DNA of 44,459 nt from Bacteroidaceae bacterium (GTDB lineage Bacteria; Bacteroidota; Bacteroidia; Bacteroidales; Bacteroidaceae). The stretch spans positions 1-44,459 of the forward strand of contig JAFTEV010000011.1 of assembly GCA_017453465.1 (NCBI GenBank), read 5' to 3'. The position numbers and the translations under genes were made by a program. Shown in pieces: positions 11,451 through 42,428 of this stretch (within the stretch, counting starts at the first letter, position 1; every line of letters starts with the position of its first letter). A model generated the notes under the pieces. The model was not told the origin of the DNA, did not search any database, and saw only the letters and a program-made list of their open reading frames with translations.

Positions 11451-11480
11451 GTTTGGCCAGGGATAAAATTTAGGCGAGCC

Positions 11481-11549
11481 GAATCAGTTGAACGCAACCA
11501 TATAGGGAAGCGTTCCACTGATTCCGCCGGCTGAATCCCCCGATTTTTT
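11481..11549 (+). terminator. Terminator after the RepA-like gene
   Basis: gaatcagt-t-gaacgc (11481-11495) pairs with gcgttc-c-actgattc (11510-11524). Six T follow at 11544-11549 after a short GC-rich spacer. It lies 30 nt past the stop codon. Confidence 0.55.
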
Positions 11550-11619
11550 ACACTTGAAACAACCAAAAAATTGAACGTTTCGGATGGAAGAATCCACCGC
11601 TTGGCGCGGCTTAAAAAAA

Positions 11620-11890
11620 ATGATTATCCGCAAAAATACCACCAATGTTTTTTTCAACACGAATTACACGAAACTTCACGAAAGCGTTGCGGCATGTGTT
11701 CATCTCACGAAGCACCTCGACGGTGACGAACCACACGAAACCATCCGGCGGGCTTCGTGAAATTCGTAGCACCGCCCAAGGTGCTCCTTCGTGTAATATG
11801 AATGTTTCGTGAAGTTTCGTGTAATTCGTGTTGAAAAAAAATAACCTTCGTGTCGAAAAAAGTGTTGGTGGTACGATTGCGGATAATCAT
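11620..11890. repeat. 271-bp palindromic element with iterated CACGAA words
   Basis: The outer ends atgattatccgc (11620-11631) and gcggataatcat (11879-11890) are inverted copies. Inside, 11648-11683 and 11805-11840 form a perfect 36-bp inverted repeat built from variants of caCGAAttaCACGAAacttCACGAA. The centre continues the pattern (acgaagcacct with aggtgctccttcgt). The right half carries about 23 extra bases. It looks like a MITE-like or REP-like insertion between two genes of the island. Confidence 0.85.
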
Positions 11891-12060
11891 ATAAAAAAAA
11901 CAAGAAAAAACCCAAAAAAAACAAGAAAAAACATGACAATGATGAAGAGAAAGGACAATGATGAAGAGAGGAACATGCAGTTAAACACCGGCCTGCGGGC
12001 TAAAGGCTCTTGTTTTTTCTTGTTTTTTCTTGTTTTCTTTGGTTTTTTCTTGTTTTTCTT
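11891..12060. repeat. A-rich palindrome built from AAACAAGAAAA words
   Basis: The left arm 11891-11932 has repeated aaacaagaaaaaac; the right arm 12008-12060 has its complement repeated (ttgttttttcttg, ttttctttggttttttcttg). The right arm ends 47 nt before the next ATG. It abuts the CACGAA palindrome without a gap. Confidence 0.75.
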
Positions 12061-12107
12061 CAGACGCGCCGAGCGTAAAACACATCCAAAAATTAAGTAG
12101 AATTGAC

Positions 12108-12986
12108 ATGAGAAATCAGAATGACAATTATCGCTATGGGCTGGAGCGGTATCGCACTCCGGCATCGAGGCACACCTGTCCGCAGTGCGGACGGAAGCGG
12201 TGCTTCACGTATTATGTAGATAGGCTGACGGGCGAGCCTATCGACCCCTCCTGCGGACGGTGTGACCATGAGCACAGCTGCGGGTATCACCTGAGGCCGA
12301 GGGAGTTTTTCGGGGAAAGGAATGGAGGGTGTGGGAGCATCACGCCCATTCCTCCCACAGCCCCGCCCCTCACCCTCCACCTTCCCTCCACGCTGCCAGC
12401 GCAGTGCATGGGCACGGAGACACTACTGCACACGTGGCTGGCGGACTGCTTCGGACGCGAGACGATGGAGCGCGTGGCCAGGCTCTACTGGCTGGGGCAG
12501 TGGAGCGACCACCGCACGGTGTATTGGCAGATTGACCGGCGGGGACGGGTGCGCGACGGGAAAATCATGGACTACCTGCCCAACGGACACCGCAACACGG
12601 AGCGGCCTCCCTCGTGGGTGTTCAGCGAACTGCGCCGCCAGGGGCGATACCCAGCCGAGGCGGTGACGCGCAAGTGTCTCTTCGGCGAGCATCTGCTGGC
12701 CCGGACGGAGGGCACGGTGGGGCTGGTGGAGAGCGAGAAGTCGGCCATCTACCTGGCTTGCCGCTTCCCGCAGTTCACGTGGGTAGCCACGGGCGGCTGC
12801 AAGGCCCTGAACGCGGAGGTGCTCACGCCGCTGAAGGGCAGGCGCACGGTGGTCTATCCCGACAGCGGGGTACACGACGAATGGGCAGCGGTGTTGAGCC
12901 GCGTGAATGGATTGGAGTATTGCTTGCACAACTTCGACTATCTTCCTGTAAACACAGACCTTGTAGATGTGTTGACCGCGCAATGA
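12108..12986 (+). CDS. Zinc-ribbon, toprim-like protein (DUF6371-like)
   Basis: 292 aa from the ATG at 12108; the longer frame from 12030 reads through the A-rich palindrome and is unlikely. An N-terminal zinc ribbon has Cys24/Cys27 (HTCPQCGRKRCF) and Cys49/Cys52 (DPSCGRCDHEHSCGYH). The C-terminal part (about 195-285) resembles a toprim-like fold: GTVGLVESEKSAIYLACRFP with the acidic Glu, WVATGGCKALN, and TVVYPDSGVHDEW with Asp, as in primase-like proteins of Bacteroidetes elements. With the RepA-like ATPase it suggests a primase/helicase replication module. The DUF6371 name is from memory of similar proteins, not from a search. Confidence 0.78.
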   Translation: MRNQNDNYRYGLERYRTPASRHTCPQCGRKRCFTYYVDRLTGEPIDPSCGRCDHEHSCGYHLRPREFFGERNGGCGSITPIPPTAPPLTLHLPSTLPAQCMGTETLLHTWLADCFGRETMERVARLYWLGQWSDHRTVYWQIDRRGRVRDGKIMDYLPNGHRNTERPPSWVFSELRRQGRYPAEAVTRKCLFGEHLLARTEGTVGLVESEKSAIYLACRFPQFTWVATGGCKALNAEVLTPLKGRRTVVYPDSGVHDEWAAVLSRVNGLEYCLHNFDYLPVNTDLVDVLTAQ

Positions 12987-12990
12987 CGAA

Positions 12991-13160
12991 GTGCCGCAGG
13001 GGTGCCGTCGGGGTGACACTGCATTCGTCCCACGGGGAGGGTGCAGTGCCACCCCTGCGGCATCCCTTTCGGGCAGCAGCGGGAGTGCAGCGGGACGGCA
13101 GCGGCAGAACTGCGCCACAGCCCGCCGAACACAGCCGCATGGAGCGGGCAAAACAGCGGT
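12991..13160. repeat. GC-rich palindromic repeat, copy A
   Basis: gccgcaggggtg (12993-13004) pairs with cacccctgcggc (13050-13061), with inner acactgca/tgcagtg. It is followed by ggcagaactgcgccac. The same words (gcagaactg, gtgcagt, cactgca) recur at 27310-27450 and 42257-42428. Confidence 0.6.
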
Positions 13161-13274
13161 CGCACGCGCTTAAATAATGTTAAACAGGGGCTGAATGGGC
13201 TTCTGGAGGGCGGTGGGGGCTTGTTTTATGTTTTACAACATATTTTTTAGGGGTAGAATATGGGAAGATAAGAG

Positions 13275-13282
13275 TATCTTTG
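13275..13282 (+). promoter_or_regulatory. -7 box of the arabinose operon
   Basis: TATCTTTG matches the -7 consensus and lies 52 nt before the ATG at 13335. A T-rich stretch (about 13243-13249) is at the right distance for a -33 element. It probably drives the whole 13.3-27.3 kb operon. I cannot define an operator by eye. Confidence 0.6.
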
Positions 13283-13334
13283 TAGAAATTTTGAAAAACA
13301 AATACCTTTTCTAATCTACAAAACAACAATCAAA

Positions 13335-14570
13335 ATGATGAAATTCAAGAATTTTATGTGGGGAAGTGCTGCCAGCGTAGCACTGCTCTGCGCGTGTGGC
13401 GGACAGCAGTCTGCCTCACAGCCCGAACTGACCCAGTCGGGCATCAATCCAGCCGACTACGACACGACCGTGGCCGTAGCCTACGACTATGAGAACCACA
13501 AGTTTGTGCCCGACACCGTGAACGCCAAGCCCGTGAAGCTCTACACGCTGAAGAACGAGAGCGGCATGGAGGTGTGCATCACCAACTTCGGCGGACGCAT
13601 CGTCAGCATCATGGTGCCCAACCGGGACGGCAAGCTGGTGGACGTGTGCTGCGGTTTCGACAAGGTGGAGAACTACTTCCCCTGGAACTTCGAGACGGAC
13701 TTTGGCTGCTCGGTGGGCCGCTATGCCAACCGCATAGACCAGGCACAGTTCACCCTGCCCGGACAGGACCAGCCCATCCAGCTGGACAAGAACAACAATG
13801 GCATCCATTCGCTCCACGGCGGATACACGGGCTGGCAGTATCAAGTGTATGACGTAGAGGAGAGTACACCGCAGAGCCTCACGCTGAAGATGACCTCGCC
13901 CGACGGCGACAACAAGTTCCCCGGCAACGTGGAGGCCACCGTGCAGTTTGCGCTGACCGACGCCAACGAAATCATCATCAACTACAACGCCACGACCGAC
14001 GCTGTGACTCCGTTCAACATGACGAACCACACGTACTTCAACCTCAGCGGCGACCTCACGCAGACCATCGACGAGAGCCTCTTGCAGGTGAACGCCGACT
14101 ACTACACTCCTGCCGATGAGACCTACATGCCCACGGGCGCAGTGAAGGCCGTGGAGGGCACCGTGTTCGACTTCCGCGCACCGAAGGCCATCGGCACGAA
14201 CTTTGCCGACGGTGACCCCGAAATCGAGGCTGCGGGCGGCGGCTACGACCACAACTGGGTGCTGAACACGAAGGGCAACCAGGAGGAGATTTGCGCCACG
14301 CTGACCGACCCGCGCAGCGGCATCCGTCTGGACATGTACACCAACGAGCCTGGCGTGCAGTGCTACACGGCCAACTTCCAGGACGGCACCCGTCCCGGCA
14401 AGCAGGGCATCATGTACCAGAAGCACTGTGCCATCTGCCTGGAGAGCCAGAAGTTCCCCGACAGCCCCAACAAGTATAAGATGCTGGGCTGGGAACTGAG
14501 CGACCCGTTCATCACACCTGAAAAGCCTTATCACAGCTACTGCAAGTATGCTTTCTCCGTTGAGAAATAA
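13335..14570 (+). CDS. Aldose 1-epimerase, lipoprotein form (GalM-type)
   Basis: 411 aa. The signal peptide MMKFKNFMWGSAASVALLCA ends in a lipobox with Cys21 (ALLCAC), so the enzyme is probably lipid-anchored, unlike cytosolic GalM. The mutarotase domain starts at about residue 55: VCITNFGGRIVSIMVPNRDG, GRYANRIDQAQFTL, NGIHSLHGGYTGWQYQVYDV (His of HGG), then NMTNHTYFNLSGD (catalytic-site His), GGYDHNWVLN and CLESQKFPDSPN (catalytic Glu). It interconverts anomers of aldoses, here presumably L-arabinose released outside the cell. First gene of the operon. The start could also be Met2. Confidence 0.94.
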   Translation: MMKFKNFMWGSAASVALLCACGGQQSASQPELTQSGINPADYDTTVAVAYDYENHKFVPDTVNAKPVKLYTLKNESGMEVCITNFGGRIVSIMVPNRDGKLVDVCCGFDKVENYFPWNFETDFGCSVGRYANRIDQAQFTLPGQDQPIQLDKNNNGIHSLHGGYTGWQYQVYDVEESTPQSLTLKMTSPDGDNKFPGNVEATVQFALTDANEIIINYNATTDAVTPFNMTNHTYFNLSGDLTQTIDESLLQVNADYYTPADETYMPTGAVKAVEGTVFDFRAPKAIGTNFADGDPEIEAAGGGYDHNWVLNTKGNQEEICATLTDPRSGIRLDMYTNEPGVQCYTANFQDGTRPGKQGIMYQKHCAICLESQKFPDSPNKYKMLGWELSDPFITPEKPYHSYCKYAFSVEK

Positions 14571-14577
14571 TAAACTA

Positions 14578-14703
14578 ACCACAGATTTCACAGATGACAC
14601 AGATTTTGAAATTCTGAGACAGATTGCACAGATTAGAATCTGTGAAATCAAAAAAATAATAATTCACAAAGGAAAAATCCGTGAAATCCGTGAAATCTGT
14701 GGT
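14578..14703. repeat. CACAGATTTCACAGAT-word palindrome
   Basis: 14578-14606 (accacagatttcacagat...) and 14675-14703 are inverted copies over 29 nt with few mismatches. The interior repeats the word (gattgcacagatt, aatctgtgaaatc) as a nested hairpin. It fills almost all of the 188-bp gap between the epimerase and the symporter. Confidence 0.85.
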
Positions 14704-14758
14704 AAAAAAAGCAAGAACAATCATCAAATTTTAATAACAAAAAAAATCAGAAAAACTT

Positions 14759-16483
14759 ATGAACTGGAATTCCACAGAATTCATCTGGCTCGACTGGGCC
14801 GTTCTTGCCGTAGGAATCTGCGGCGTGGTATGGGCCGTCTATCGGGCCATCGTGAAAGACAAGCAGGCCCAGAAGGGCGAGGACTCATCGGCTTACCTCT
14901 TCGGTAAGGGCGAACCCTGGTACGTAATCGGTATGGCTATCTTTGCCGCCAACATCGGGTCGGAACACCTGGTGGGACTGGCCGGCACGGGTGCAAAGAG
15001 CGGCGTGGGCATGGCCCACTGGGAAATGCAGGGCTGGATGATTCTCATCCTCGGCTGGCTGTTCGTCCCATTCTATCAGCTGATGATTAACAAGATGGGC
15101 AAAATCATCACCATGCCCGACTTCCTGAAGTTCCGCTACACACAGCGCACTGGCTCATGGCTGAGCATCATCACGCTCGTGGCCTACATCCTGACGAAGG
15201 TCAGCGTGACAGCCCTCACAGGCGGCATCTTCTTCAAGTACCTCTGGGGACTGAACTTCTGGGTGGGAGCCATCGGCCTGATTCTCGTCACAGCCATCTT
15301 CACCGTCTTCGGCGGCATGAAGGGCGTGATGACCCTCTCCACCATCCAGACCCCTATCCTCATCATCGGCTCCTTCCTCGTGCTGTTCCTCGGCCTTGCA
15401 GCCCTGGGCGGCGGCAACATCGCCGAAGGCTGGAGCAGCATGATGGACTACTGCGGACAGCTCAACAACGGCTACGGCACGACCCACATGTTCCACTGGG
15501 AGGAGGGCGACTCGATGTATCAGGAGTACCCCGGCTTCGTGGTCTTCCTGGGAGCCTCGATCATCGGCTTCTGGTACTGGTGTACTGACCAGCACATCGT
15601 ACAGCGTGTGCTGGGACAGGTGCCGGGCGAAGACAACGCCGAGGTCATCAAGCGTGCCCGCCGTGGCACCATCGCCGCCGGCTTCTTCAAGGTGCTCCCC
15701 TGCTTCATGTTCCTCATCCCCGGCATGATTGCCGCTGCACTGGCCCAGAAGGGTGTCTTCCAGATGGAAGAGACCGACGCTGCCTTTGCCATCATGGTTC
15801 AGCAGGTGCTGCCAGCCGGCATCAAGGGCATCGTGACCATCGGCTTCATCTGCGCACTGGTGGCTTCGCTGGCTGCCTTCTTCAACTCGTGCGCCACACT
15901 GTTCACCGAGGACTTCTACAAGCCCATGAAGAAGGGCATGAGCGAGGCTCACTACGTGTTCGTAGGCCGCGTGGCCACCGTCGTTGTGGTTATCCTCGGC
16001 TTCCTCTGGCTGCCCGTCATGATGAGCATGGACACACTGTACAACTACCTGCAGGGCATCCAGTCGCTGCTGGCTCCGGCCATGGTAGTGGTATTTGCCT
16101 GTGGCATCCTGAGCAAGACCGTCACTCCCAAGGCTGGTGAATACACGCTGATTGTGGGCTTCCTCATCGGTATGCTCCGCCTGGTGACCAACGTCTTCAC
16201 CGACACGGGCAAGGCCACCATGGAGGGTGCCTTCTGGGAGAACACGGCATGGTTCTGGCAGACCAACTGGCTGGTGTTCGAGTGCTGGCTGCTGGTCTTC
16301 CTGTTCATCTTCATCTATGCCGTCTCGCTGTGCACGCCCAAGCCTACACAGGCACAGATTGACGCCATCACCTTCACGAAGGACTTCCGCAAGAGCATCA
16401 GCGAAAGCTGGGGTGCCTTCGACGTAATCGGCACGCTCGTCGTCATCGGCCTCTGCGCTTGCTTCTACGCTTATTTCTGGTAA
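14759..16483 (+). CDS. Sodium:solute symporter (SSS family), probable L-arabinose transporter
   Basis: 574 aa with about 13-14 hydrophobic segments. SSS hallmarks: an early segment then YLFGKGEPWYVIGMAIFAAN followed by GSEHLVGLAGTGAKSG, the FTVFGGMKGVMTLSTIQ stretch, WYWCTDQHIVQRVLG (a signature of SGLT-like sugar symporters), and FICALVASLAAFFNSCATLF. It would couple sugar uptake to Na+ in the inner membrane. Placement between the epimerase and AraD suggests L-arabinose or another pentose as substrate. The ATG at 14759 follows an A-rich leader just past the palindrome. Confidence 0.93.
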   Translation: MNWNSTEFIWLDWAVLAVGICGVVWAVYRAIVKDKQAQKGEDSSAYLFGKGEPWYVIGMAIFAANIGSEHLVGLAGTGAKSGVGMAHWEMQGWMILILGWLFVPFYQLMINKMGKIITMPDFLKFRYTQRTGSWLSIITLVAYILTKVSVTALTGGIFFKYLWGLNFWVGAIGLILVTAIFTVFGGMKGVMTLSTIQTPILIIGSFLVLFLGLAALGGGNIAEGWSSMMDYCGQLNNGYGTTHMFHWEEGDSMYQEYPGFVVFLGASIIGFWYWCTDQHIVQRVLGQVPGEDNAEVIKRARRGTIAAGFFKVLPCFMFLIPGMIAAALAQKGVFQMEETDAAFAIMVQQVLPAGIKGIVTIGFICALVASLAAFFNSCATLFTEDFYKPMKKGMSEAHYVFVGRVATVVVVILGFLWLPVMMSMDTLYNYLQGIQSLLAPAMVVVFACGILSKTVTPKAGEYTLIVGFLIGMLRLVTNVFTDTGKATMEGAFWENTAWFWQTNWLVFECWLLVFLFIFIYAVSLCTPKPTQAQIDAITFTKDFRKSISESWGAFDVIGTLVVIGLCACFYAYFW

Positions 16484-16498
16484 TATGCTGAAAGGTTA

Positions 16499-16541
16499 GT
16501 GGAAGGGGAAGGAGGCTCGGCCTCGGCTTCCCCCTCCCCAC
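16499..16541 (+). terminator. Hairpin after the first symporter (attenuator-like)
   Basis: gtggaaggggaag (from 16499) pairs with cttccccctccccac (to 16541) around gaggctcggcctcg. It is followed by tctctcttt instead of a clean T-run, so partial termination or mRNA end protection is more likely than full stop, since the operon continues. Confidence 0.45.
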
Positions 16542-16563
16542 TCTCTCTTTACACAATAGAACG

Positions 16564-16851
16564 ATGAATGCAAACAGAAACAAGCAAAAGACACAAAACA
16601 GACAGTTGCACAGACAGCTGCAAGAGGCGGAAATGATTCAAGACGAAAGAGAGCAGAAGAAGGCACTCTTGCTGAAGATTAGTGACTTCCTGCTCGACCT
16701 CACCAAGCTGGTCTTTGCAGGAATCATTCTGACAGGCATCATCGACCTTGACCTCAACAAGGTTTGGCTGTTCACCATCGGACTGACAGTCACTTTTGCT
16801 TCAACAACACTTGGATTCTATATGTTTAAACGAGGTTCACAAATAAACTAA
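16564..16851 (+). CDS. Small membrane protein (DUF6722-like)
   Basis: 95 aa. A highly charged N-terminal helix (QLHRQLQEAEMIQDEREQKK, about residues 16-35) is followed by two membrane segments, LTKLVFAGIILTGIIDL and WLFTIGLTVTFASTTLGFYM. The same layout occurs in small Bacteroidales proteins annotated as DUF6722; I have not verified the match. It lies between the symporter and AraD, 13 nt before another tiny membrane-protein gene. The function is unknown. A helper subunit of the symporter is possible. Confidence 0.75.
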   Translation: MNANRNKQKTQNRQLHRQLQEAEMIQDEREQKKALLLKISDFLLDLTKLVFAGIILTGIIDLDLNKVWLFTIGLTVTFASTTLGFYMFKRGSQIN

Positions 16852-16864
16852 AAACTGCAAACAA

Positions 16865-16981
16865 ATGGAATTTCTCTGTTTCTTGATTTTTCTCGGTATC
16901 CTTAGCATTATCGGAATCATCTGGACCTATTTCGGCATCAAGGAAGATGAACGAAAGGGCTGGCACCGCGCCTATAAATAA
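16865..16981 (+). CDS. 38-aa single-pass membrane protein
   Basis: ATG at 16865 to TAA at 16979-16981 encodes a 38-residue protein: MEFLCFLIFLGILSIIGIIW as membrane helix, then TYFGIKEDERKGWHRAYK as charged tail. It starts 13 nt after the previous stop behind an A-rich leader (aaaactgcaaacaa) and ends 37 nt before araD. The clean hydrophobic/charged split and operon placement support a real gene. The function is unknown. Confidence 0.68.
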   Translation: MEFLCFLIFLGILSIIGIIWTYFGIKEDERKGWHRAYK

Positions 16982-17018
16982 ATAATGTAATAACAGAAAA
17001 ACCTAAATATATCTTGAT

Positions 17019-17723
17019 ATGTTAGAAGAACTCAAAGAAAAAGTATTCAAGGCCAATCTCGACCTGGTAAAGCAGGGACTGGTCATCTTCACCTGGGGCA
17101 ACGTCTCAGGCATTGACCGTGAAAAGGGCCTGGTGGTGATTAAGCCATCGGGCGTGAGCTACGACGAGATGAAGGCCAGCGACATGGTGGTCGTTGACCT
17201 GCAGACGGGCAAGGTGGTGGAAGGCGACCTCAACCCCAGCAGCGACACCCCTACCCACCTGGTGCTCTACAAGGCTTTCCCCAACATCAAGGGAGTGGTT
17301 CACACCCACTCTACCTACGCTACGGCCTTTGCACAGGCTGGACGCGACATTCCCAACATCGGCACTACCCACGCCGACTATTTCTACAAGGACATCCCCT
17401 GCACTCGCGATATGACGAAGGACGAGGTGGAGGGACAGTATGAGCTGGAGACAGGTAATGTCATTGTGGACGAAATCCTGAACATCCGCAAGATTAACCC
17501 CGACCACACGCCTGCCGTGCTGGTGAAGAACCACGGCCCGTTCTCGTGGGGCACGTCGCCCGACAACGCGGTCTATAACGCCAAGGTGATGGAGCAGTGC
17601 GCTAAGATGGCTTTCGTGGCCTTCTCGGTGAACCCTGACCTCACTATGAATCCGCTGCTCGTGGAGAAGCACTATAACAGAAAGCATGGCCCTAACGCTT
17701 ATTATGGGCAGAAAAAGAAATGA
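17019..17723 (+). CDS. araD: L-ribulose-5-phosphate 4-epimerase
   Basis: 234 aa, the usual length. Converts L-ribulose-5-P to D-xylulose-5-P, the last step specific to arabinose. Class II aldolase/epimerase fold: [50 protein letters not shown], the metal ligands in [16 protein letters not shown] (two His) and a further His in [11 protein letters not shown], and the C-terminal [18 protein letters not shown]. Cytosolic and zinc-dependent by family. An intruding GxxExxY cassette follows 16 nt after the stop and separates it from araA. Confidence 0.96.
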
Positions 17724-17741
17724 GGAGGCTTCACATTAATG

Positions 17742-17836
17742 AGGGGCTTCACATTAATTTGGACAAATTAGTCCGTTAATTAGGATAAATTTTTGGTGAG
17801 TTGGTGATAGTAAAATTCTTTTGAGTTGGTGATATA
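17742..17836 (+). repeat. Left terminal inverted repeat of the GxxExxY cassette
   Basis: The left arm begins gaggggcttcacattaat and continues through gttaattaggataaat and two copies of gagttggtgat. It aligns with the reverse complement of 18292-18387 along nearly its full length (cttyacattaat, ggacaaat, ggttaattgggataaat, aaattcttttt, agttggtgat/agttgggatga). A second copy of ggcttcacattaat lies just outside, at about 17728-17741. Confidence 0.85.
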
Positions 17837-17855
17837 TAATAAATAATAAAGGAGG

Positions 17856-18287
17856 ATGACGAGACAGGAGTATCGGGACATATATGATGCCGTGGGTGTG
17901 GCGATGGAGGTACACAGCACGATAGGCAGAGGTATGGCCGAGCAGGTTTATCAGGAAGCATACGCCATTGAAGCCACGATGCGCGGAATGGATGTAGAGC
18001 GCGAGAAGAAGCTGCACCTGTCTTACAAAGGAGTGGATTTGCAGAAAGTCTTCTTTGCCGACTTCTACTACAAAGGCATCATCATGGAGTTCAAGTCTGT
18101 GGAGGAATTATGTGCCGAACACCGTGCACAACTTCTCAACTACTTGCGGATAGCCCAACTGGACCGAGGCATTCTCTTCAACTTCGGAGAGGCCAGCCTG
18201 CGTGCCGAGCGTTATCTCTACCTCCCCACTGAAGACCAATTCGTACTGCTCACCCACCAAAACTACAAATCCTACATCACAGACTAA
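17856..18287 (+). CDS. GxxExxY family protein
   Basis: 143 aa. The naming motif is present in IGRGMAEQVYQEAYAIEATM (Gly-X-X-Glu-X-X-Tyr). Further conserved parts are the PD-(D/E)XK-like strand VFFADFYYKGIIMEFKSVEE, with Asp and Glu-X-Lys spaced as in nuclease folds, and HRAQLLNYLRIAQLDRGILF followed by NFGE. This suggests a small nuclease-like fold; biochemical function of the family is unknown to me. It sits between araD and araA, has no sugar-related role I can see, and is bracketed by about 95-bp inverted repeats, so it looks like an inserted cassette. It starts directly after the left repeat. Confidence 0.88.
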   Translation: MTRQEYRDIYDAVGVAMEVHSTIGRGMAEQVYQEAYAIEATMRGMDVEREKKLHLSYKGVDLQKVFFADFYYKGIIMEFKSVEELCAEHRAQLLNYLRIAQLDRGILFNFGEASLRAERYLYLPTEDQFVLLTHQNYKSYITD

Positions 18288-18291
18288 AACA

Positions 18292-18393
18292 TTCATCCCA
18301 ACTACCCCAAAAAAGAATTTCATCCCAACTACCCCCCAAAAAAAATTTATCCCAATTAACCATTCCATTTGTCCCAATTAATGTAAAGCCCTC
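18292..18393 (-). repeat. Right terminal inverted repeat of the GxxExxY cassette
   Basis: The reverse complement reads gggctttacattaattggg, acaaatgg, ggttaattgggataaat, then two copies of ggggtagttgggatga. It mirrors the left arm at 17742-17836 and starts 5 nt after the GxxExxY stop. A C-run (18381-18404) and another aattaacgtaa copy follow outside. Confidence 0.85.
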
Positions 18394-18470
18394 CCTCCCC
18401 CCCCAATTAACGTAACAAACAAAACCCAAAAACATAAACTATTTATTAACTTTAAAATTTCAGAAAAACG

Positions 18471-20009
18471 ATGAAAGCATTTGAAAATTTGGAACTTTGG
18501 TGGGTGACTGGTGCACAGTTGCTCTATGGTGGTGACGCAGTCGTACAGGTTGACGCTCACTCAAAAGAAATGGTAGAAGGTCTGAACGCCAGCGGCATCA
18601 TTCCTATAAAGGTGGTTTACAAGGGCACAGCCAACTCCAGCAAGGAGGTGGAAGCCGTGATGAAGGCTGCCAACAACGAAGAGAAGTGTGTGGGTGTCAT
18701 CACCTGGATGCACACATTCTCGCCAGCCAAAATGTGGATTAAGGGTCTGCAAGACCTGCAGAAGCCTCTGCTCCACTTCCACACACAGTACAACGCCGAA
18801 ATTCCTTGGGACACCATGGACATGGACTTCATGAACCTGAACCAATCGGCTCACGGAGACATCGAGTTCGGACACATCTGCACTCGTATGCGCGTGCCAC
18901 GCAAGGTGGTTTGCGGCTACTGGAAGGACGAACAGGCTCAGAAGCAGATTGCAGTGTGGGCACGTGTGGCCGCTGGTGTGGCCGATGCCAAGAACGTGCG
19001 CTGCCTCATGTTCGGCATGAACATGAACAACGTGGCAGTTACCGACGGAGACCGTGTAGAGTTTGAGCAGCGTCTGGGCTACCACGTTGACTACTACCCA
19101 GTCAGCTCATTGATGGAGTACTTCAAGAAGGTGACCGACGCTGAGGCCGACGCACTGGTTGAGGAGTACAAGAAGCTCTACACCATCAAGATTGACGAGA
19201 GCGGCGAACAGGTTTACTGGGAGAAGGTGAAGAACGCTGCCAAGGCAGAAATCGCCCTGCGCCGTGTGCTGGCCGACGAGGGTGCCACTGCATTCACTAC
19301 GAACTTCGACGACCTGGGCGATGCTGACATCAACGACCCCAACTTCGTTGGTTTCGACCAGATTCCTGGCCTCGCTTCACAGCGTCTGATGGAAGAAGGC
19401 TACGGCTTCGGTGCCGAGGGCGACTGGAAGACTGCCTGCCTCTACCGCACACTCTGGGTCATCCAGCAGGGTCTGCCCACAGGCTGCTCGTTCCTGGAGG
19501 ACTACACCCTCAACTTCGCCGGCGACCGCTCCAGCTGTCTCCAGAGCCACATGCTCGAAGTATGTCCGCTCATCGCCGTTGACAAGCCAAAGCTGGAAGT
19601 TCACTTCCTCGGCATCGGCATCCGCAAGCAGCAGACTGCTCGCCTCGTCTTCACCTCGAAGGTGGGTCGTGGCATCAAGGCCACCGTTGTTGACCTGGGC
19701 AATCGTTTCCGCCTCATTTCTCAGGAGGTAGAGTGCATCGAGCCAAAGCCAATGCCCAACCTGCCCGTTGCCAGCGCACTGTGGGTTCCGCAGCCTACAT
19801 TTGAAATCGGTGCCGGCGCATGGATTCTGGCCGGTGGCACTCACCACAGCGCATTCTCCTACGACATCACCGAGGAGTATTGGGAGGACTTCGCCGAGAT
19901 GACAGGCATCGAGTATGTGAAAATCAACAAGAACACCTGCATCAGCGAGTTCAAGCAGCAGCTCCAGAACAACGAGATGTACTATATGCTGAGCAAGGCT
20001 TTGAAGTAA
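18471..20009 (+). CDS. araA: L-arabinose isomerase
   Basis: 512 aa, close to the usual 500. Isomerises L-arabinose to L-ribulose in the cytosol with Mn2+. The N-terminus NLELWWVTGAQLLYGGDAV and the internal HTFSPAKMWIKGLQDLQKPL and LHFHTQYNAEIPWDTMDMDF are diagnostic of AraA. Metal-binding Glu/His contexts are in ASQRLMEEGYGFGAEGDWKT and near the end in ILAGGTHHSAFSYD. The start follows a long A/T-rich leader after the GxxExxY cassette. araB follows after a palindrome-filled 108-bp gap. Confidence 0.97.
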   Translation: MKAFENLELWWVTGAQLLYGGDAVVQVDAHSKEMVEGLNASGIIPIKVVYKGTANSSKEVEAVMKAANNEEKCVGVITWMHTFSPAKMWIKGLQDLQKPLLHFHTQYNAEIPWDTMDMDFMNLNQSAHGDIEFGHICTRMRVPRKVVCGYWKDEQAQKQIAVWARVAAGVADAKNVRCLMFGMNMNNVAVTDGDRVEFEQRLGYHVDYYPVSSLMEYFKKVTDAEADALVEEYKKLYTIKIDESGEQVYWEKVKNAAKAEIALRRVLADEGATAFTTNFDDLGDADINDPNFVGFDQIPGLASQRLMEEGYGFGAEGDWKTACLYRTLWVIQQGLPTGCSFLEDYTLNFAGDRSSCLQSHMLEVCPLIAVDKPKLEVHFLGIGIRKQQTARLVFTSKVGRGIKATVVDLGNRFRLISQEVECIEPKPMPNLPVASALWVPQPTFEIGAGAWILAGGTHHSAFSYDITEEYWEDFAEMTGIEYVKINKNTCISEFKQQLQNNEMYYMLSKALK

Positions 20010-20017
20010 ACATCAAA

Positions 20018-20110
20018 GCACAGAGGACACAGAGAAGACAGAGAACACAGAGACAGAAAGACTATGTTACCTCTTCTCTGTGACCTCCGTCTTCTCTGTG
20101 ACCTCTGTGC
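20018..20110. repeat. CACAGAG-word palindrome between araA and araB
   Basis: 20018-20054 (gcacagaggacacagagaag...) and 20074-20110 are inverted copies over 37 nt with about five mismatches, separated by 19 nt. Both arms iterate cacagag/gacagag. It begins 8 nt after the araA stop and ends 7 nt before the araB start, so it makes up nearly the whole intergenic region. Confidence 0.9.
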
Positions 20111-20117
20111 ATAATCA

Positions 20118-21719
20118 ATGATTATGACTATGAACGCTAAACAAACAATACAAGAAGGCAAGGCCATCCTCGGCATCGAGTTCGGCTCGACCCGCATCAA
20201 GGCCGTGCTCATCGACCAGGAGCAGAAGCCCATCGCACAGGGTAGCCACACATGGGAAAACCAGCTGGTTGACGGCCTGTGGACCTACTCTACAGAGGCC
20301 ATCTGGTACGGCCTGCAGGACTGCTACGCCGACCTCAGAAAGAACGTACTGGAGCAGTACGAAGTGGAAATCGAGACACTGGCCGCCATCGGCTTCAGTG
20401 CCATGATGCACGGCTACATGCCCTTCAAGGGCAACGACATCCTCGTGCCCTTCCGCACATGGCGCAACACCAACACGGGCAAGGCTGCTGCCGAACTCTC
20501 GGAACTCTTCAACTACAACATCCCACTGCGCTGGAGCATCAGCCACCTCTACGAAGCCATCCTCGACAACGAAGAGCACGTGAAGGACATCGACTTCCTC
20601 ACTACCCTCGCCGGCTACGTACACTGGCAGGTGACGGGCCAGAAGGTGCTCGGCGTGGGCGACGCATCGGGCATGATTCCCGTTGACCCCGCTACGAAGA
20701 CCTACGACGCAACGATGGTGGAGAAGTTCGACAAGCTCATTGCCCCACGCGGCTTCAGCTGGAAACTGCTCGACATCCTGCCCAAGTCGCTCAACGCTGG
20801 CGAAAACGCTGGCTACCTCACACCCGAAGGCGCACTGAAGCTCGACGTGAGCGGACACCTGAAGGCCGGCATACCCGTATGTCCACCTGAAGGCGACGCT
20901 GGCACAGGCATGGTGGCCACCAACGCCGTGAAGCAGCGCACGGGCAACGTCAGTGCCGGAACCAGCAGCTTCTCTATGATTGTGCTGGAGAAGCCGCTCA
21001 GCAAGCCCTACGAAATGATTGACATGGTGACTACACCCGACGGCTCGCTCGTGGCCATGGTGCACTGCAACAACTGCACCTCGGACATCAACGCCTGGGT
21101 GAAGCTCTTCAAGGAGTATGCCGAACTGCTCGGCGTGCAGCAGAGCACCAACGAACTCTACACCAACCTGTTCAACGCTGCCCTCAAGGGCGACGCAGAC
21201 TGCGGTGGCACGATTTCGTACAACTACATTTCGGGCGAACCCGTGACAGGTCTGGAAGACGGACGGCCACTCTTCGTGCGCTCTGCCGGCGACAAGTTCT
21301 CGCTGGCCAACTTCATGCGTGCCCACCTCTACGGTGCCATCGGCGTGCTGAAGCTGGGCAACGACATCCTGCTCAACGAGGAAATGGTTCGCGTGGACCG
21401 CATCATGGGTCACGGCGGCTACTTCACCACCCCCATCGTGGGTCAGCGCATGTTGGCTGCTGCCCTCAACACACCCATCTCCGTCATGGAGACAGCCGGT
21501 GAAGGCGGTGCATGGGGCATTGCCCTGCTTGCCAGCTATGTGGTCAACAACCCGAAGAAGCTCGCCCTGGCCGACTGGCTCGAAGAGGTTGTCTTCGCTG
21601 GCAACACAGGCACCGAGGTGGCTCCCACACCCGAAGACGTGGCTGGCTTCAACCGCTACATCGAGAACTACAAGGCATGCCTCCCCGTGGAGCAGGCAGC
21701 CGTAAAGTGCAAGAAATAA
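20118..21719 (+). CDS. araB: Ribulokinase (FGGY family carbohydrate kinase)
   Basis: About 530 aa; three in-frame ATG codons at 20118, 20124 and 20130 compete, and the last (MNAKQTIQEGK) is equally likely. FGGY fold: N-terminal phosphate loop AILGIEFGSTRIKAVLID, IGFSAMMHGYMPFKG, FRTWRNTNT, then GVGDASGMIPVDP, PEGDAGTGMVATNAVKQRTG and NVSAGTSSFSMIVLE (ATP/phosphate region), and the C-terminal METAGEGGAWGIALLAS. It phosphorylates L-ribulose to L-ribulose-5-P between the AraA and AraD steps. Context within the arabinose operon supports the specific call over other FGGY kinases. There is no usable Shine-Dalgarno site because the palindrome reaches almost to the start. Confidence 0.93.
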   Translation: MIMTMNAKQTIQEGKAILGIEFGSTRIKAVLIDQEQKPIAQGSHTWENQLVDGLWTYSTEAIWYGLQDCYADLRKNVLEQYEVEIETLAAIGFSAMMHGYMPFKGNDILVPFRTWRNTNTGKAAAELSELFNYNIPLRWSISHLYEAILDNEEHVKDIDFLTTLAGYVHWQVTGQKVLGVGDASGMIPVDPATKTYDATMVEKFDKLIAPRGFSWKLLDILPKSLNAGENAGYLTPEGALKLDVSGHLKAGIPVCPPEGDAGTGMVATNAVKQRTGNVSAGTSSFSMIVLEKPLSKPYEMIDMVTTPDGSLVAMVHCNNCTSDINAWVKLFKEYAELLGVQQSTNELYTNLFNAALKGDADCGGTISYNYISGEPVTGLEDGRPLFVRSAGDKFSLANFMRAHLYGAIGVLKLGNDILLNEEMVRVDRIMGHGGYFTTPIVGQRMLAAALNTPISVMETAGEGGAWGIALLASYVVNNPKKLALADWLEEVVFAGNTGTEVAPTPEDVAGFNRYIENYKACLPVEQAAVKCKK

Positions 21720-21744
21720 ATAAAAGAATAAAGAATAGAAAGGA

Positions 21745-22035
21745 ATGCCCAAGATTCTGCTCTACATCACAGCGCATGTCATCTGGAATTTTCTGTTCTA
21801 CAACACAGACTTCCATGAAAACAGGGCGCATGTGCACGTAGGCAAACGCAGCACCGAACATCTGTGCAAGATTTGGCTGGAACCTGTCGTGGAACTGGCC
21901 AAACAAGGTGACCTGACCGATGCACAGGCACGGGAAGTTGTTCAGATTGCCACTCGATACCAAACGTAACTGCTGCGCCAGTGGAATCTGTTTAAGCAGG
22001 GCAAACCCATCAGAATTATCAAAGTAAAGAAATAG
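21745..22035 (+). pseudogene. DUF4160-like protein with in-frame stop
   Basis: The frame from ATG 21745 gives 74 residues to a TAA at 21967-21969. It continues in the same frame for another 21 codons (LLRQWNLFKQGKPIRIIKVK) to a TAG at 22033-22035. The 74-residue part has the DUF4160 look: an aromatic first strand (ILLYITAHVIWNFLFYN), HENRAHVHVGKR with the conserved His-Val-His, then KIWLEPVVELAKQGDLTDAQ. The basic, hydrophobic tail after the stop looks like a genuine C-terminus, so I read this as a gene with one nonsense change, or a slightly shorter functional form. It is paired with a DUF2442-like gene 16 nt downstream. Confidence 0.7.
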
Positions 22036-22051
22036 GAACCATTGATTTTGT

Positions 22052-22318
22052 ATGCATAAGACGGAAGGCTACTGGAATGTGATTCCACAAATCAAATCCT
22101 TGTCATTTCCCAAACGCGGCAAGTTTCAAGTTGATTTACAGGACGGACGCTCTATCGTGATGCCCATTGCGGCATTCCCCTGCATGAAGAAAGTGCCTAC
22201 CCGTGAACGTCCCAACTGGTATCTGATGGGAGGCGGCGTGACATGGGACTCATGCCCGGAAGTCATCCACATCGAGCAGATTCTCGGCAACTTCCAAAAC
22301 TATGCCCATGAGCAATAG
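22052..22318 (+). CDS. DUF2442-like protein
   Basis: 88 aa. The text MHKTEGYWNVIPQIKSLSFP, GKFQVDLQDGRSIVMPIAAF and WDSCPEVIHIEQILG matches the beta-rich DUF2442 pattern of small proteins commonly encoded next to DUF4160 proteins. That pair is often regarded as a candidate toxin-antitoxin unit; which partner is toxic is not known to me. It lies within the pentose operon between araB and transketolase, 33 nt before the latter. No flanking inverted repeats were found, unlike the two other intruders. Confidence 0.75.
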   Translation: MHKTEGYWNVIPQIKSLSFPKRGKFQVDLQDGRSIVMPIAAFPCMKKVPTRERPNWYLMGGGVTWDSCPEVIHIEQILGNFQNYAHEQ

Positions 22319-22351
22319 ATCCTGTTTCCCCTTAACTTCAAAACAAACATC

Positions 22352-24370
22352 ATGAACGATATCAAAGTATTAAACCACGCAGCCGACAACATTCGCATAC
22401 TGGCTGCCAGTGCAGTGGAGAAGGCAAAGTCTGGTCACCCAGGCGGCGCAATGGGCGGTGCCGACTTCATCAATGTGCTCTACTCCGAATACCTGCAGTA
22501 CGACCCCAAGAACCCAGGATGGGTGGGCCGCGACCGCTTCTTCCTCGACCCCGGCCACATGGCTCCCATGCTCTACTCACAGCTCTGCCTCATCGGAAAG
22601 TTCAGCCTCGACGAACTGGCACAGCTCCGTCAGTGGGGCTCACCCACTACGGGACACCCCGAATTTGAGATTGCACGCGGCATAGAGAACACATCCGGTC
22701 CGCTCGGACAGGGACACGTCTTCGCCATCGGTGCAGCCATCGCAGCCAAGTTTCTCGCTGCCCACACGGGCAACCCCACCTTCGAGAAGGAGACCATCTA
22801 TGCCTACATCAGCGATGGCGGCATACAGGAGGAAATCAGCCAGGGCGGTGCACGCATCGCCAGCGTACTGGGACTGGACAACCTCATCATGTTCTACGAC
22901 TCCAACGACATCCAGCTCTCTACCGAGACCAAGGACGTGATGACTGAGGACACAGCCGCCAAGTACCGCGCCTTCGGTTGGGAAGTCATCGAAATCGTGG
23001 GCAACGACGCACAGCAGATTCGCCAGGCCCTCGACCAAGCCAAGCAGGTGAAGGGCAAGCCTACCCTCATCATCGGCAAGTGCATCATGGGCAAGGGCGC
23101 ACTGAAGGCCGACGGCACCAGCTACGAAGCCAACTGCAAGACCCACGGCGCACCCCTCGGCGGTGATGCCTACGTCAACACCATCAAGAACCTGGGCGGC
23201 GACCCTGAGAACCCATTCCAGATTTTCCCCGACGTGCAGGAACTCTACGCCAACCGTGCCAAGGAACTCGCCGACATCTGCGCTGCCCGCTATGCCGAAG
23301 AAAAGGCATGGGCCGAGGCCAACCCAGAGAAGGCCGCACAGCAGGCCGACTGGTTCAGCGGCAAGGCTCCAAAGATTGACTGGAGCAAGTGTGTGCAGAA
23401 GGACAACGACGCTACCCGCTCAGCCTCGGCAGCCTGTCTCGGCGTACTGGCAGAACAGGTGCCCAACATGATTTGCGCCAGTGCCGACCTCAGCAACTCA
23501 GACAAGACCGACGGTTTCCTCAAGAAGACCCACGCCTTCACGAAGGGCGACTTCACCGGTGCCTTCTTCCAGGCCGGTGTAGCCGAACTCACGATGGCCT
23601 GCTGCTGCATCGGTATGGCCCTGCATGGCGGTGTCATCCCAGCCTGCGGCACATTCTTCGTATTCTCCGACTACATGAAGCCAGCCGTGCGCATGGCTGC
23701 CCTCATGGAACTGCCTGTGAAGTTCATCTGGACACACGACGCATTCCGCGTGGGCGAAGACGGACCTACCCACGAGCCCGTTGAGCAGGAAGCACAGATT
23801 CGCCTCATGGAGAAGCTGAAGAACCACAGCGGCAAGCCCAGCGTACTCGTTCTGCGTCCAGCCGACGCACAGGAAACCACCGCTGCCTGGGCACTTGCCA
23901 TGGAGAACATGGCCACCCCGACGGCACTCATCCTCTCGCGCCAGAACATCCAGAACCTGCCCGCCGGCAACGACTACTGCCAGGCAGCCAAGGGCGGCTA
24001 CATCGTGGCTGGCTCGGACGAGAATCCCGATGTCATCCTTGTAGCCACAGGCTCGGAAGTCAGCACACTCGTAGCCGGAGCCGAACTCCTGCGCAAGGAC
24101 GGCAAGAAGGTGCGCATCGTCAGCGTGCCCAGTGAAGGTCTCTTCCGTCTGCAACCCAAGGAGTACCAGCAGAGCGTACTGCCCGCAGGCGTAAAGAAGT
24201 TCGGCCTCACAGCCGGCCTGCCCGTCAACCTGCTCGGCCTTGTGCCCGAATCGGAAGGCACCATCTGGGGTCTGGAGTCCTTCGGCTTCTCAGCCCCCTA
24301 CAAGGTGCTCGACGAAAAGCTGGGCTACACAGCAGAAAACGTCTATAACCAAGTCATGAAACTGTTCTAA
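22352..24370 (+). CDS. tkt: Transketolase
   Basis: 672 aa, full length. Thiamine-diphosphate enzyme moving two-carbon units between ketoses and aldoses in the non-oxidative pentose phosphate pathway; it consumes the xylulose-5-P from AraD. Conserved parts: VEKAKSGHPGGAMGGADFIN, DRFFLDPGHMAPMLYSQLCL, TSGPLGQGHVFAIGAAIAAK, the TPP motif SDGGIQEEISQGGARIA (Ser in place of the first Gly of GDG), pyrimidine-domain FTGAFFQAGVAELTMACCCI, and TIWGLESFGFSAPYKVLDEK at the C-terminus. The His and Asp of WTHDAFRVGEDGPTHEPVEQ belong to the active site. Operon context makes it the arabinose-dedicated copy. Confidence 0.96.
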   Translation: MNDIKVLNHAADNIRILAASAVEKAKSGHPGGAMGGADFINVLYSEYLQYDPKNPGWVGRDRFFLDPGHMAPMLYSQLCLIGKFSLDELAQLRQWGSPTTGHPEFEIARGIENTSGPLGQGHVFAIGAAIAAKFLAAHTGNPTFEKETIYAYISDGGIQEEISQGGARIASVLGLDNLIMFYDSNDIQLSTETKDVMTEDTAAKYRAFGWEVIEIVGNDAQQIRQALDQAKQVKGKPTLIIGKCIMGKGALKADGTSYEANCKTHGAPLGGDAYVNTIKNLGGDPENPFQIFPDVQELYANRAKELADICAARYAEEKAWAEANPEKAAQQADWFSGKAPKIDWSKCVQKDNDATRSASAACLGVLAEQVPNMICASADLSNSDKTDGFLKKTHAFTKGDFTGAFFQAGVAELTMACCCIGMALHGGVIPACGTFFVFSDYMKPAVRMAALMELPVKFIWTHDAFRVGEDGPTHEPVEQEAQIRLMEKLKNHSGKPSVLVLRPADAQETTAAWALAMENMATPTALILSRQNIQNLPAGNDYCQAAKGGYIVAGSDENPDVILVATGSEVSTLVAGAELLRKDGKKVRIVSVPSEGLFRLQPKEYQQSVLPAGVKKFGLTAGLPVNLLGLVPESEGTIWGLESFGFSAPYKVLDEKLGYTAENVYNQVMKLF

Positions 24371-24378
24371 ATAATTAG

Positions 24379-24449
24379 GAATGAGGAATTAGGAATGAGG
24401 AATTGATACAGAGCACACTCTATCACCCTTCACCCCTAATTCCTCATTA
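24379..24449 (+). repeat. Left inverted repeat of the four-helix-bundle cassette
   Basis: 24379-24403 iterates gaatgaggaattag and is a perfect 25-bp inverted match of 24870-24894. An inner inverted copy, cctaattcctcatta (24435-24449), makes the left flank self-complementary as well. It starts 8 nt after the transketolase stop and ends 15 nt before the gene. Confidence 0.88.
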
Positions 24450-24464
24450 CTTTTTAAAGACATC

Positions 24465-24842
24465 ATGGACAAAGAGAACAACATTGTTGCTGAGAAAAGT
24501 AAACTTTTTGCAATAAGAATTGTCAACTTATACAAATACCTTCTAAAAGAGAAAAAAGAATACCTATTAAGCAAACAGCTGGTCAGAAGCGGTACCAGCA
24601 TTGGTGCAAACATAGCAGAAGCAATCTGTACAATCAGCAAAAAGGATTTTATAGCTAAAATGTATATAGCATACAAAGAATGCTCCGAAAGTTTATACTG
24701 GATAGAGCTGCTATATGCAACGGAATACTTAGATGAGAAAGAATACCTGTCCATCTGGGAACAATGCAAAGAACTCCATAAAATCTTGAGTAGCATAACA
24801 AAATCATCTGAGGAAAGAATTGAAACACTCAGTGGTAAATAA
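24465..24842 (+). CDS. Four-helix-bundle protein (23S rRNA-intervening-sequence protein family)
   Basis: 125 aa. Four amphipathic helices: KLFAIRIVNLYKYLLKEKKE, LSKQLVRSGTSIGANIAEAI (the family signature around SGTSIGANIAEA), KKDFIAKMYIAYKECSESLY with WIELL, and EYLSIWEQCKELHKILSSIT. The fold is that of the S23/IVS protein and of Avd, the accessory protein of diversity-generating retroelements. No reverse transcriptase or 23S rRNA gene is near, so the role here is unknown. The gene is clearly more AT-rich than transketolase and rpiB on either side and is bracketed by inverted repeats, which suggests recent arrival as a cassette. Confidence 0.9.
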   Translation: MDKENNIVAEKSKLFAIRIVNLYKYLLKEKKEYLLSKQLVRSGTSIGANIAEAICTISKKDFIAKMYIAYKECSESLYWIELLYATEYLDEKEYLSIWEQCKELHKILSSITKSSEERIETLSGK

Positions 24843-24869
24843 ACACATTGCCCACAGTGATAATTCCTC

Positions 24870-24894
24870 ATTCCTCATTCCTAATTCCTCATTC
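24870..24894 (-). repeat. Right inverted repeat of the four-helix-bundle cassette
   Basis: attcctcattcctaattcct... is the perfect 25-bp inverse of 24379-24403. It ends one base before the rpiB ATG at 24896, so it has replaced or become the rpiB translation-initiation region. Confidence 0.88.
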
Positions 24895-33580: not shown

Positions 33581-33639
33581 CACAAAAATAAACCAAAGAA
33601 AACAGAAATTGAGATTGTTTTCTTTGGTTTATTTTTGTG
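33581..33639. terminator. 24-bp perfect A/T-rich hairpin, likely bidirectional terminator
   Basis: 33581-33604 (cacaaaaataaaccaaagaa...) and 33616-33639 are exact reverse complements with an 11-nt loop. It separates the convergent mini-protein gene and kdsB. The stem is T-rich on both strands, which fits termination in either direction. Confidence 0.7.
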
Positions 33640-42142: not shown

Positions 42143-42256
42143 CAGATTTTTCATTGCACTCACACCTAAAAACGCACGTTTTTAAGATTTATTATATAAA
42201 GTATCGGAGAAAATCGAAAAAAACACACATTTTTGCCCCACAGCAATGACTTTTCA

Positions 42257-42428
42257 GCGGGAAAGTTCTCCCACTGCCGTGGCACTGCATTGCTGCTGCC
42301 GTGGCAAAGTTCTGCTACTGCGGTGGCACTGCATTGCTGCTGCGGTGGGAGAACTGTGCCACGGCAACGGGAGAACTTTGCGCCGGCAGTCAGAGAACTG
42401 TGCCACGGCAACGGCAATGCAGTGCTAC
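42257..42428. repeat. GC-rich palindromic repeat array, copy B
   Basis: Two direct copies of gtggcactgcattgctgctg lie at 42279 and 42323 (44-nt period), and inverted copies of the same words follow: gagaactgtgccacggcaac at about 42350 and 42394 (also 44 nt apart), ending with ggcaatgcagtgct. The core words gagaactgtgccac and cactgca recur at 13.0 and 27.3 kb. Confidence 0.8.

Follow-up and report, generated by a model that had tools for sequence, protein, structure and literature searches.

Word-built palindromes around PF05635 and PF13366 genes: a probable class of minimal mobile elements in bacteria

REPINs and REPs are small dispersed intergenic palindromes tied to a gene, RAYT (TnpA-REP), that is flanked by the same palindrome; RAYT is a HUH transposase, and REPs are not known to be word arrays. 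In the intervening sequences (IVS) of the 23S rRNA gene of Coxiella and others, a PF05635 gene lies between terminal inverted repeats that form a stem, at a tolerated insertion site. The IVS of Coxiella, whose ends form a 28-bp stem, is excised by RNase III (PMC4990558; this and the other PMC papers are cited from extracts of their text). Heptamer words form other families. In two Xanthomonas genomes, GGGAATC heptamers make up 186 and 183 arrays, and inverted pairs number 70 and 75; GGGGA(C/T)T heptamers occur in Nostoc (PMC4692102). TAACTGA repeats occur in Beggiatoaceae, Cyanobacteria, and Bacteroidetes, and MacGregor (2015) suggested an unidentified TAACTGA-repeat-binding protein as a possible mobile element (PMC4679880). 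The trnL P6b stems of Nostoc, which contain 7-nucleotide (nt) motifs, were repeatedly replaced, and their origin was called unknown (PMC4476775). The BrickBuilt miniature inverted-repeat transposable element (MITE) of Porphyromonas gingivalis has 23-nt direct repeats and terminal inverted repeats like those of IS5-family elements (PMC4596501). Here we analyse palindromes built from short words in a 44,459-nt stretch (the window) of a Bacteroidaceae bacterium, a single contig (JAFTEV010000011.1) of a 3.16-Mb draft genome, two of which enclose a small gene of the PF13366 or PF05635 family.

We propose, with a probability of roughly 0.72, that these loci belong to a bacterial class of minimal palindromic mobile elements, in which each small protein works, in cis as well as in trans, on the word of its own element. 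Two inverted arms would make up the element, and in each arm a single degenerate word would be repeated in a short array. In a loaded (master) copy they would flank one small PF05635 or PF13366 gene, whose expression would probably come from read-through out of the host operon, and empty copies would consist of arms and loop only. The protein would recognise its own word, probably in the hairpin, and would let any palindrome in that word spread to new gene gaps, both in cis and in trans.

All six inverted repeats reported in the window by an earlier note are present, and two of them enclose a gene, as it had said. In the araD-araA gap, a GxxExxY protein gene (PF13366/TIGR04256, E = 3.5e-30; 17856..18287, + strand) lies between a left arm of TTAATTnGGAnAAAT words (17744..17794, + strand, 51 nt) and a right arm (18341..18391, − strand), which are 82% complementary; Tandem Repeats Finder gave periods of 18, 25, and 27 within and beside these arms. 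In the tkt-rpiB gap, the gene of a four helix bundle protein, the 23S rRNA-intervening sequence protein (PF05635/TIGR02436, E = 3.9e-28; 24465..24842, + strand), follows a hairpin (24373..24456, no strand) made of the left arm at 24373-24404 and a short partner at about 24430-24456. The right arm (24862..24894, − strand), of which 24862-24893 pairs with 24373-24404, ends one base before the ATG at 24896. The 25-nt core of these arms is 100% complementary, with a Tandem Repeats Finder period of 7/14.

The other four palindromes have no strand. The first (11620..11890, cargo-less) is nested, with outer arms at 11620-11663/11847-11890 and inner perfect arms at 11648-11683/11805-11840 (36/36 complementary positions). 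Its CACGAA words were seen by eye with uneven spacing, and Tandem Repeats Finder, which gave rows at the other five loci, gave none here. A sister copy with 33/33 equal arm nucleotides lies just upstream of a PF13366 gene (L001; handles with L or G are ours), which it does not enclose. The cargo-less palindrome of CACAGATTT words in the galM-SSF gap (14578..14703, period 9) has a word of the same kind as the loaded PF13366 locus L002, and the cargo-less CACAGAG palindrome in the araA-araB gap (20018..20110) also has period 9; both were found by Tandem Repeats Finder and by the inverted-repeat search. RNA folding gave z values of −13.1 (11620-11890), −8.2 (14578-14703), −10.3 (20018-20110), and −6.7 (24373-24450). 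The remaining locus (11893..12060; AAACAAG in the earlier note), an A-rich palindrome of AAAAAACAAG words, is of low complexity, with a period of 10 in our feature list and 10-11 in Tandem Repeats Finder. No sister copy of it appeared among the listed periodic arm pairs of the genome scan; its membership is uncertain, it is the weakest of the six, and it may lie outside the class. The claim that both arms are near-tandem degenerate copies of a word therefore holds clearly for three loci and more loosely for two, and it is doubtful for the A-rich locus.

Enclosure was scored as the best ungapped inverted match between 300 nt upstream and 300 nt downstream of a gene, with a cut at a score of at least 13. 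In the window's taxonomic family we examined 73 PF05635 and 72 PF13366 loci, the best and a chosen further part of the listed places; they include four PF05635 and three PF13366 loci of the window genome and leave out its weak PF05635 matches (L008-L010). Two PF13366 loci and one ParE locus were dropped for short flanks. Arms reached the cut in 55/73 PF05635 and 52/70 PF13366 loci, against 0/29 ParE toxin genes from the same genome set. Arms swapped between two loci of one family matched in 3.5-3.7%. Other open reading frames (ORFs) of 240-1200 nt in sampled stretches passed in 9 of 383 cases (2.3%), one of which was the antisense ORF of the window's own loaded element. These contrasts with ParE, swapped arms, and other ORFs indicate that the two genes are preferred content and that the arm match is locus-specific, and the enrichment of these two cargo families, which the earlier note had offered as a check, is thus borne out.

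The same arrangement was observed far from Bacteroidaceae. Across many phyla, 54/77 usable PF05635 loci had arms (swapped arms 3.1%); this set is the best 80 of at least 584 places, with three dropped. In a PF05635 family centred on a Lysobacteraceae genome, 29/30 loci had arms, and swapped arms matched in 32% because the word is shared among loci. On cyanobacterial plasmids, 9/14 PF05635 loci had arms (swapped 9.3%; 14 of 23 records found). PF13366 was present in 20/37 non-Bacteroidota genomes, where 25/29 loci had arms (swapped 6.2%). The last three sets (Lysobacteraceae-centred, cyanobacterial, non-Bacteroidota PF13366) comprise 30, 14, and 30 loci of longer lists, with flanks of 350-450 nt, 300 nt, and 350 nt, respectively.

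That the six loci are separate known repeat families or chance hairpins would agree with the different words at each locus and with the lack of any Rfam match in the window at 10-26 kb. We scanned 20 stretches of the window genome (399 kb of 3,160 kb, all from contigs met in the gene searches) with a strict filter (inverted score at least 15 and arm periodicity at least 0.5) and obtained 48 arm pairs against 0 in shuffled copies; moreover, the cargo rule holds in other phyla. With these counts and the 9/383 other ORFs, we reject chance or separate families for the class, though not for the A-rich locus at 11.9 kb, and give this explanation next to no credence overall. The refutation foreseen by the earlier note, in which each word belongs to a known separate family, did not materialise. 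Only 14578 and 24379 among the six window loci passed this strict filter; the third window match, at 33581, is a separate hairpin.

The word class follows the gene family. In the window's family the best lag of PF05635 arms was 7 in 29/55 loci (8 in 11, 10 in 6), and that of PF13366 arms was 9 in 30/52 (10 in 11, 7 in 1). Lag 7 was found in 45/54, 28/29, and 8/9 PF05635 arms in the multi-phylum, Lysobacteraceae-centred, and cyanobacterial sets, respectively, and in 0/25 PF13366 arms outside Bacteroidota. Two or more CRCRRA cores in the 5' arm marked PF13366 loci (22/52 in the window's family, 18/25 outside Bacteroidota) and were rare at PF05635 loci (1/55 in the window's family, 1/54 in many phyla, 0/29 in the Lysobacteraceae-centred set). 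GGGANTN, a looser form of the Xanthomonas GGGAATC word (PMC4692102), occurred at least twice in the 5' arm of 14/29 Lysobacteraceae-centred PF05635 loci (shuffled 0.1), against 1/55 in the window's family. Exact GGGAATC was present in the 5' arm of 3/29 of these loci. Exact GGGAATC arrays at PF05635 genes were rejected, since an exact pair occurred in 0/30 Lysobacteraceae-centred loci and only the looser form holds. The suggestion of one process acting on words is supported in this form: not any word serves, and the two cargo families have their own usual periods (7 against 9).

In PF05635 the word period also follows the protein lineage. Protein trees were built from 50 of 53 PF05635 and 40 of 50 PF13366 loci with clear arms. 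The PF05635 tree required nine word-period changes against a shuffled mean of 19.8 (0/200 shuffles as low), and its three period-6 loci form one clade; the PF13366 tree required nine against 13.7 (2/200 as low). PF05635 pairs from different sites shared arm words in 25/41 cases at 60-80% identity, 15/135 at 45-60%, 5/358 at 30-45%, and 6/826 below 30%. A gene that travels with its own arms gives the same lineage pattern, so the pattern speaks for one inherited unit and not yet for binding. An unrelated transposase, IS200/IS605-like or RAYT-like, could instead make the palindromes, with the two genes as frequent cargo, as the trans mobilisation of small palindromes in REP/REPIN-RAYT systems would suggest. 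We regard this as very improbable: the word should then follow the transposase, yet it follows the cargo, and no other gene class stood out among the 383 other ORFs (9 with arms), although no transposase search was made.

Loaded and empty forms at allelic sites, as the earlier note had anticipated, were found in three gaps of the arabinose/pentose gene row around the palindromes. This row holds aldose epimerase, SSF symporter, class II aldolase-type epimerase ("araD"), arabinose isomerase, and FGGY kinase, followed by tkt and rpiB, which were named by reading and conserved order without a family search. We compared the window with 40 same-genus genomes (40 of 42 other genomes with the anchor gene). 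In the araA-araB gap (34/41 scored), the genes overlap by 11 nt in 10 genomes, and elsewhere bare palindromes with five different words were seen by eye, some with a low arm score. Here the window carries the bare CACAGAG palindrome. At the corresponding position in L191 and L193 a PF13366 gene stands between CACAGAG words, again by eye, with arms too degenerate for the cut (scores 9.5 and 9.0). In the araD-araA gap (41/41 scored), PF13366 is present in the window and L179, and PF05635 in L191, L193, L211, and L212; L210 has a degenerate PF05635 and L203 an apparent right-hand remnant. In the tkt-rpiB gap (30/41 scored), the distance is at most 5 nt, mostly with overlap, in 13 genomes; bare palindromes with several different words stand in others, and PF05635 between AATTAGGAATGAGG arms is present in the window, L191, and L193. 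Both PF05635 copies of L191 carry a stop. The galM-SSF gap has a bare palindrome in the window and a PF05635 gene in L180. Many elements occupy the full space from stop codon to start codon.

In other same-genus genomes (L182, L213, L217), the araD-araA gap contains two or three consecutive copies of a different palindrome, built on GTACCCCTCGGGTAC.

The cargo genes are strongly oriented. PF05635 was in sense with both neighbours at 43 and antisense to both at 3 of 55 loci, and PF13366 at 34 and 1 of 52 (the rest mixed or uncalled), against 6 and 4 for the ParE control. The simple reading is that a cargo gene survives where the operon reads through. At the 34 bare loci of the window genome (after spans above 260 nt were dropped and neighbours merged), the flanking ORFs are co-directional in 15 cases, convergent in 7, and divergent in 5; a further 3 loci fall within an ORF call, and 4 are at edges. 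Background ORF pairs were 160:42:41 in the same order.

Avd, the accessory protein of diversity-generating retroelements, works with a reverse transcriptase. In an RNA route, which would generalise the 23S rRNA IVS, the arms would pair into a stem in the operon transcript, RNase III would trim this stem, the RNA would be held by the protein, and reverse transcription would return copies to DNA. PF05635 is the 23S IVS protein and resembles Avd (PMC10053308), the Coxiella IVS is excised by RNase III (PMC4990558), the cargo lies in sense in operons (43:3 and 34:1), and the window palindromes form strong RNA stems. Nevertheless, cargo-less copies also stand between convergent (7) and divergent (5) genes, PF13366 has a DNA-nuclease-like fold, and no reverse transcriptase lies within the element as seen here, though none was searched for elsewhere. 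We consider the RNA route fairly unlikely.

Empty copies share their words with loaded ones. By reading, five word families of the window genome have a loaded member: AGTGAAA (L007), AGTTAAA (L006), AAGGAGATAA (L004), AATTAGGAATGAGG (the window), and CACAGATT (L002). For words such as ACGGTTTT and ATCCGAAATTACGAA, no loaded member was seen in the incomplete assembly of this genome. Eight compared copies of AGTGAAA stand at unrelated sites with common arms and differing flanks. A similar loop of ~30 nt, close to GGCTAAACGCARCCTAATGCTGGCTAAAC and present in both orientations, is kept by six of them (L219, L228, L229, L230, L234, L238), which suggests that the loop may also be of importance; in L226 and L272 it differs. 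Periodic arm pairs numbered 48 in 399 kb of the window genome and 17 in 400 kb of five gene-bearing relatives; five genomes that lack both families gave 2 in 400 kb. This contrast is only supportive, since the stretches were selected differently: those of the relatives came from contigs holding a PF05635 or PF13366 gene, and those of the gene-free genomes, all from other genera, were placed at set intervals.

In L237 (4525-4947) a whole 9-nt-word palindrome (~180 nt) is duplicated in tandem.

Word copy number depends on the gene. The PF13366-type word CACRRATNNCACRRAT reached at least five copies in 22/40 genomes with a strong PF13366 match against 3/75 without one (Fisher p = 6e-10), with whole-genome medians of 6.5 and 0, and the contrast is visible inside several genera. 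Read backwards, the word gave 28 matches against 688 forward over all 121 genomes. Genomes whose PF13366 matches were all weak (six, with 0, 16, 0, 0, 3, and 1 copies) were kept out of this comparison. The PF05635 word AGTGAAAAGTGAAAAATCT, with up to one mismatch, was found at 81 places in the window genome against 1 for its backwards control.

Without any mobility, arrays could grow in place by slippage and hairpin template switching and be kept for mRNA processing or insulation, with the genes as passengers. Array copy number does vary, and very long arrays exist (about 22 AGTTCTC copies per arm at a Terriglobia locus). Such growth does not account for a word class that tracks gene family and protein lineage, for the common arms and mostly common loop of dispersed copies at unrelated sites, or for word counts that depend on the gene; we hold it to be quite improbable.

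The two proteins suggest different chemistry within the proposed mobile class. In the PF13366 protein, D69, E78, and K80 are invariant across ten diverse members, and its AlphaFold model (predicted local distance difference test score, pLDDT, 93) has a PD-(D/E)XK fold; fold and D...(D/E)xK residues together place it in the PD-(D/E)XK superfamily. The nearest structures to the model, with modest scores, were SSO0001, which we take to be a Cas4, and the BpuSI nuclease; no credible solved relative was found by sequence. PF13366 would be likely to cut DNA in a word- or structure-directed manner through its PD-(D/E)XK site. PF05635 has solved relatives in XCC0516 (PDB 2gsc), presumably a Xanthomonas campestris protein from its locus tag, and 2rld. 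For a relative of Avd (PMC10053308), the likelier role would be to hold the hairpin so that a nuclease, polymerase, or reverse transcriptase of the host can act on it. A defence-system identity was rejected, as PADLOC gave only weak nuclease-fold matches for the window's PF13366 protein (best E = 0.0024) and none for the four other proteins given.

Several observations weigh against the mobile-element proposal. The earlier note's mobilising process is suggested by presence/absence and dispersal, and no jump was seen. By eye, the compared gaps showed neither a recognisable target-site duplication nor a fixed target, and PF05635 lacks obvious catalytic residues. About a quarter of the PF05635 and PF13366 genes are armless at the cut, including L001, L045, and L047, and 3/14 cyanobacterial plasmid PF05635 genes are antisense to both neighbours. 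A sharp 9-nt period for PF13366 was not found outside Bacteroidota, where the lags spread from 8 to 10 (9, 6, and 5 of 25 loci at lags 8, 9, and 10, respectively), and PF13366 word sharing is weak (4/41 pairs at 60-80% identity, 2/2 above 80%). Within the AGTGAAAAGTGAAAAATCT family, the two arms of a palindrome show no significant excess of likeness over arms taken from separate palindromes; such coupling was rejected with 10/32 identical against 6.6 shuffled (678 of 10000 shuffles as high). Three genomes without a PF13366 gene (G062, G074, G080) hold 5-8 CACRRATNNCACRRAT copies, G017 holds 16 with a weak match only, and seven with the gene (G013, G018, G036, G047, G068, G089, G095) have zero.

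The trans link of AGTGAAAAGTGAAAAATCT is loose too: the 17 genomes that have an L007 homologue hold a median of 20 copies, and the 28 that lack one a median of 2 (p = 0.006), where a homologue means at least 45% identity and over 100 bits, a bit cut set after the list was seen. G139, G151, and G158 (45-47% identity) lie just below it. G081 (67 copies), G063 (61), G113 (44), and G151 (43) are rich in the word and counted as lacking a homologue; G151 has a 47% L007 homologue under 100 bits, which carries a stop. Decaying families that outlive their master would look like this, and so would a shared-ancestor effect. A strict one-to-one rule, in which a word family survives only beside its own master gene, was rejected for AGTGAAA, given the many-copy genomes without a close homologue. 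On balance we consider the class real, wide, and rule-bound, and the step from its rules to mobility is our best inference rather than a demonstration.

Other features were noted. AAA_25 ATPase and DUF6371/zinc-ribbon genes (window 10293-12986) flank the 11.6-12.1 kb palindromes and perhaps belong to a mobilisable region or an integrated plasmid. At window 42252-42428 lie GC-rich tandem units of 22 nt (CTGCCGTGGCACTGCATTGCTG), also mutually inverted, and a GATGGCACTGCATTGCC hairpin resembling them was found in L233 (673-736) of the window genome. The hairpins at 43952-44059 (52-nt arms, 81% complementary) and 33581-33639 (24-nt perfect arms) are long and do not look word-built. In L263 (7057-7736), inverted 16-nt arms surround an ORF that by eye reads like a type I restriction specificity subunit, perhaps an invertible locus.

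In a broader form, PF05635 and PF13366 would be two unrelated bacteria-wide families of word-programmed mobilisers. The lineage would fix word length and spelling, any such palindrome would be mobile with or without a gene, and many orphan families of heptamers and 9-mers, such as GGGAATC of Xanthomonas, the heptamers of Cyanobacteria, and perhaps TAACTGA, would have this source, with mobility that needs no DDE, HUH, tyrosine, or serine recombinase of their own. We hold the chances for and against this wider claim to be even. In the open-access literature, no paper tying PF05635 or PF13366 to word palindromes was found among the matches listed; a subscription paper or preprint could hold the link. 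If correct, "four helix bundle protein" and "GxxExxY protein", names without function, gain a testable role.

PF05635 appears in a figure legend on CRISPR-linked proteins (PMC10910872). On cyanobacterial plasmids we found it twice between cas6 and cas4 and once between cas10 and cmr3 (L420, L424, L429), each time with its own word arms; insertion may therefore explain the CRISPR link, and PF05635 seems a passenger of these operons rather than a CRISPR part. For annotation, such an association may only mean insertion into long operons. Avd is a relative of PF05635 in diversity-generating retroelements (PMC10053308), and the window gene stands between tkt and rpiB. REPINs with RAYT are similar in their dispersed palindromes, which here too share sequence with a gene-bearing copy. 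The genes enclosed here do not encode Y1 HUH transposases: PF13366 has a PD-(D/E)XK nuclease fold, and PF05635 is a four-helix bundle; no search for RAYTs covered the rest of the genome. Insertion sequences and MITEs of the DDE type have terminal inverted repeats with target-site duplication; inverted arms are present here, and no clear duplication was evident by eye in the compared gaps. BrickBuilt likewise is an intergenic inverted repeat with an internal tandem repeat in a Bacteroidales genome; the extract of its description reports no small gene inside (PMC4596501).

The 23S IVS is similar in its PF05635 gene between inverted terminal repeats, as seen at window 24373-24894 and in 55/73 family loci. 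The window copy, however, lies between tkt and rpiB and not inside a 23S rRNA gene; the elements here stand between operon protein genes, their arms are iterated words of mostly 7 nt, many copies are gene-less, and a second unrelated family (PF13366) with mostly 9-nt words takes the same role. The GGGAATC, TAACTGA, and Nostoc P6b families are alike in tandem 7-nt words, intergenic or in stems. In the extracts of PMC4692102, PMC4679880, and PMC4476775 no gene is tied to them, whereas here PF05635 loci carry GGGANTN words; for TAACTGA a link to PF05635 is perhaps suggested by analogy. Published repeat families without a known cause thereby gain a candidate maker, and orphan heptamer repeats a possible origin.

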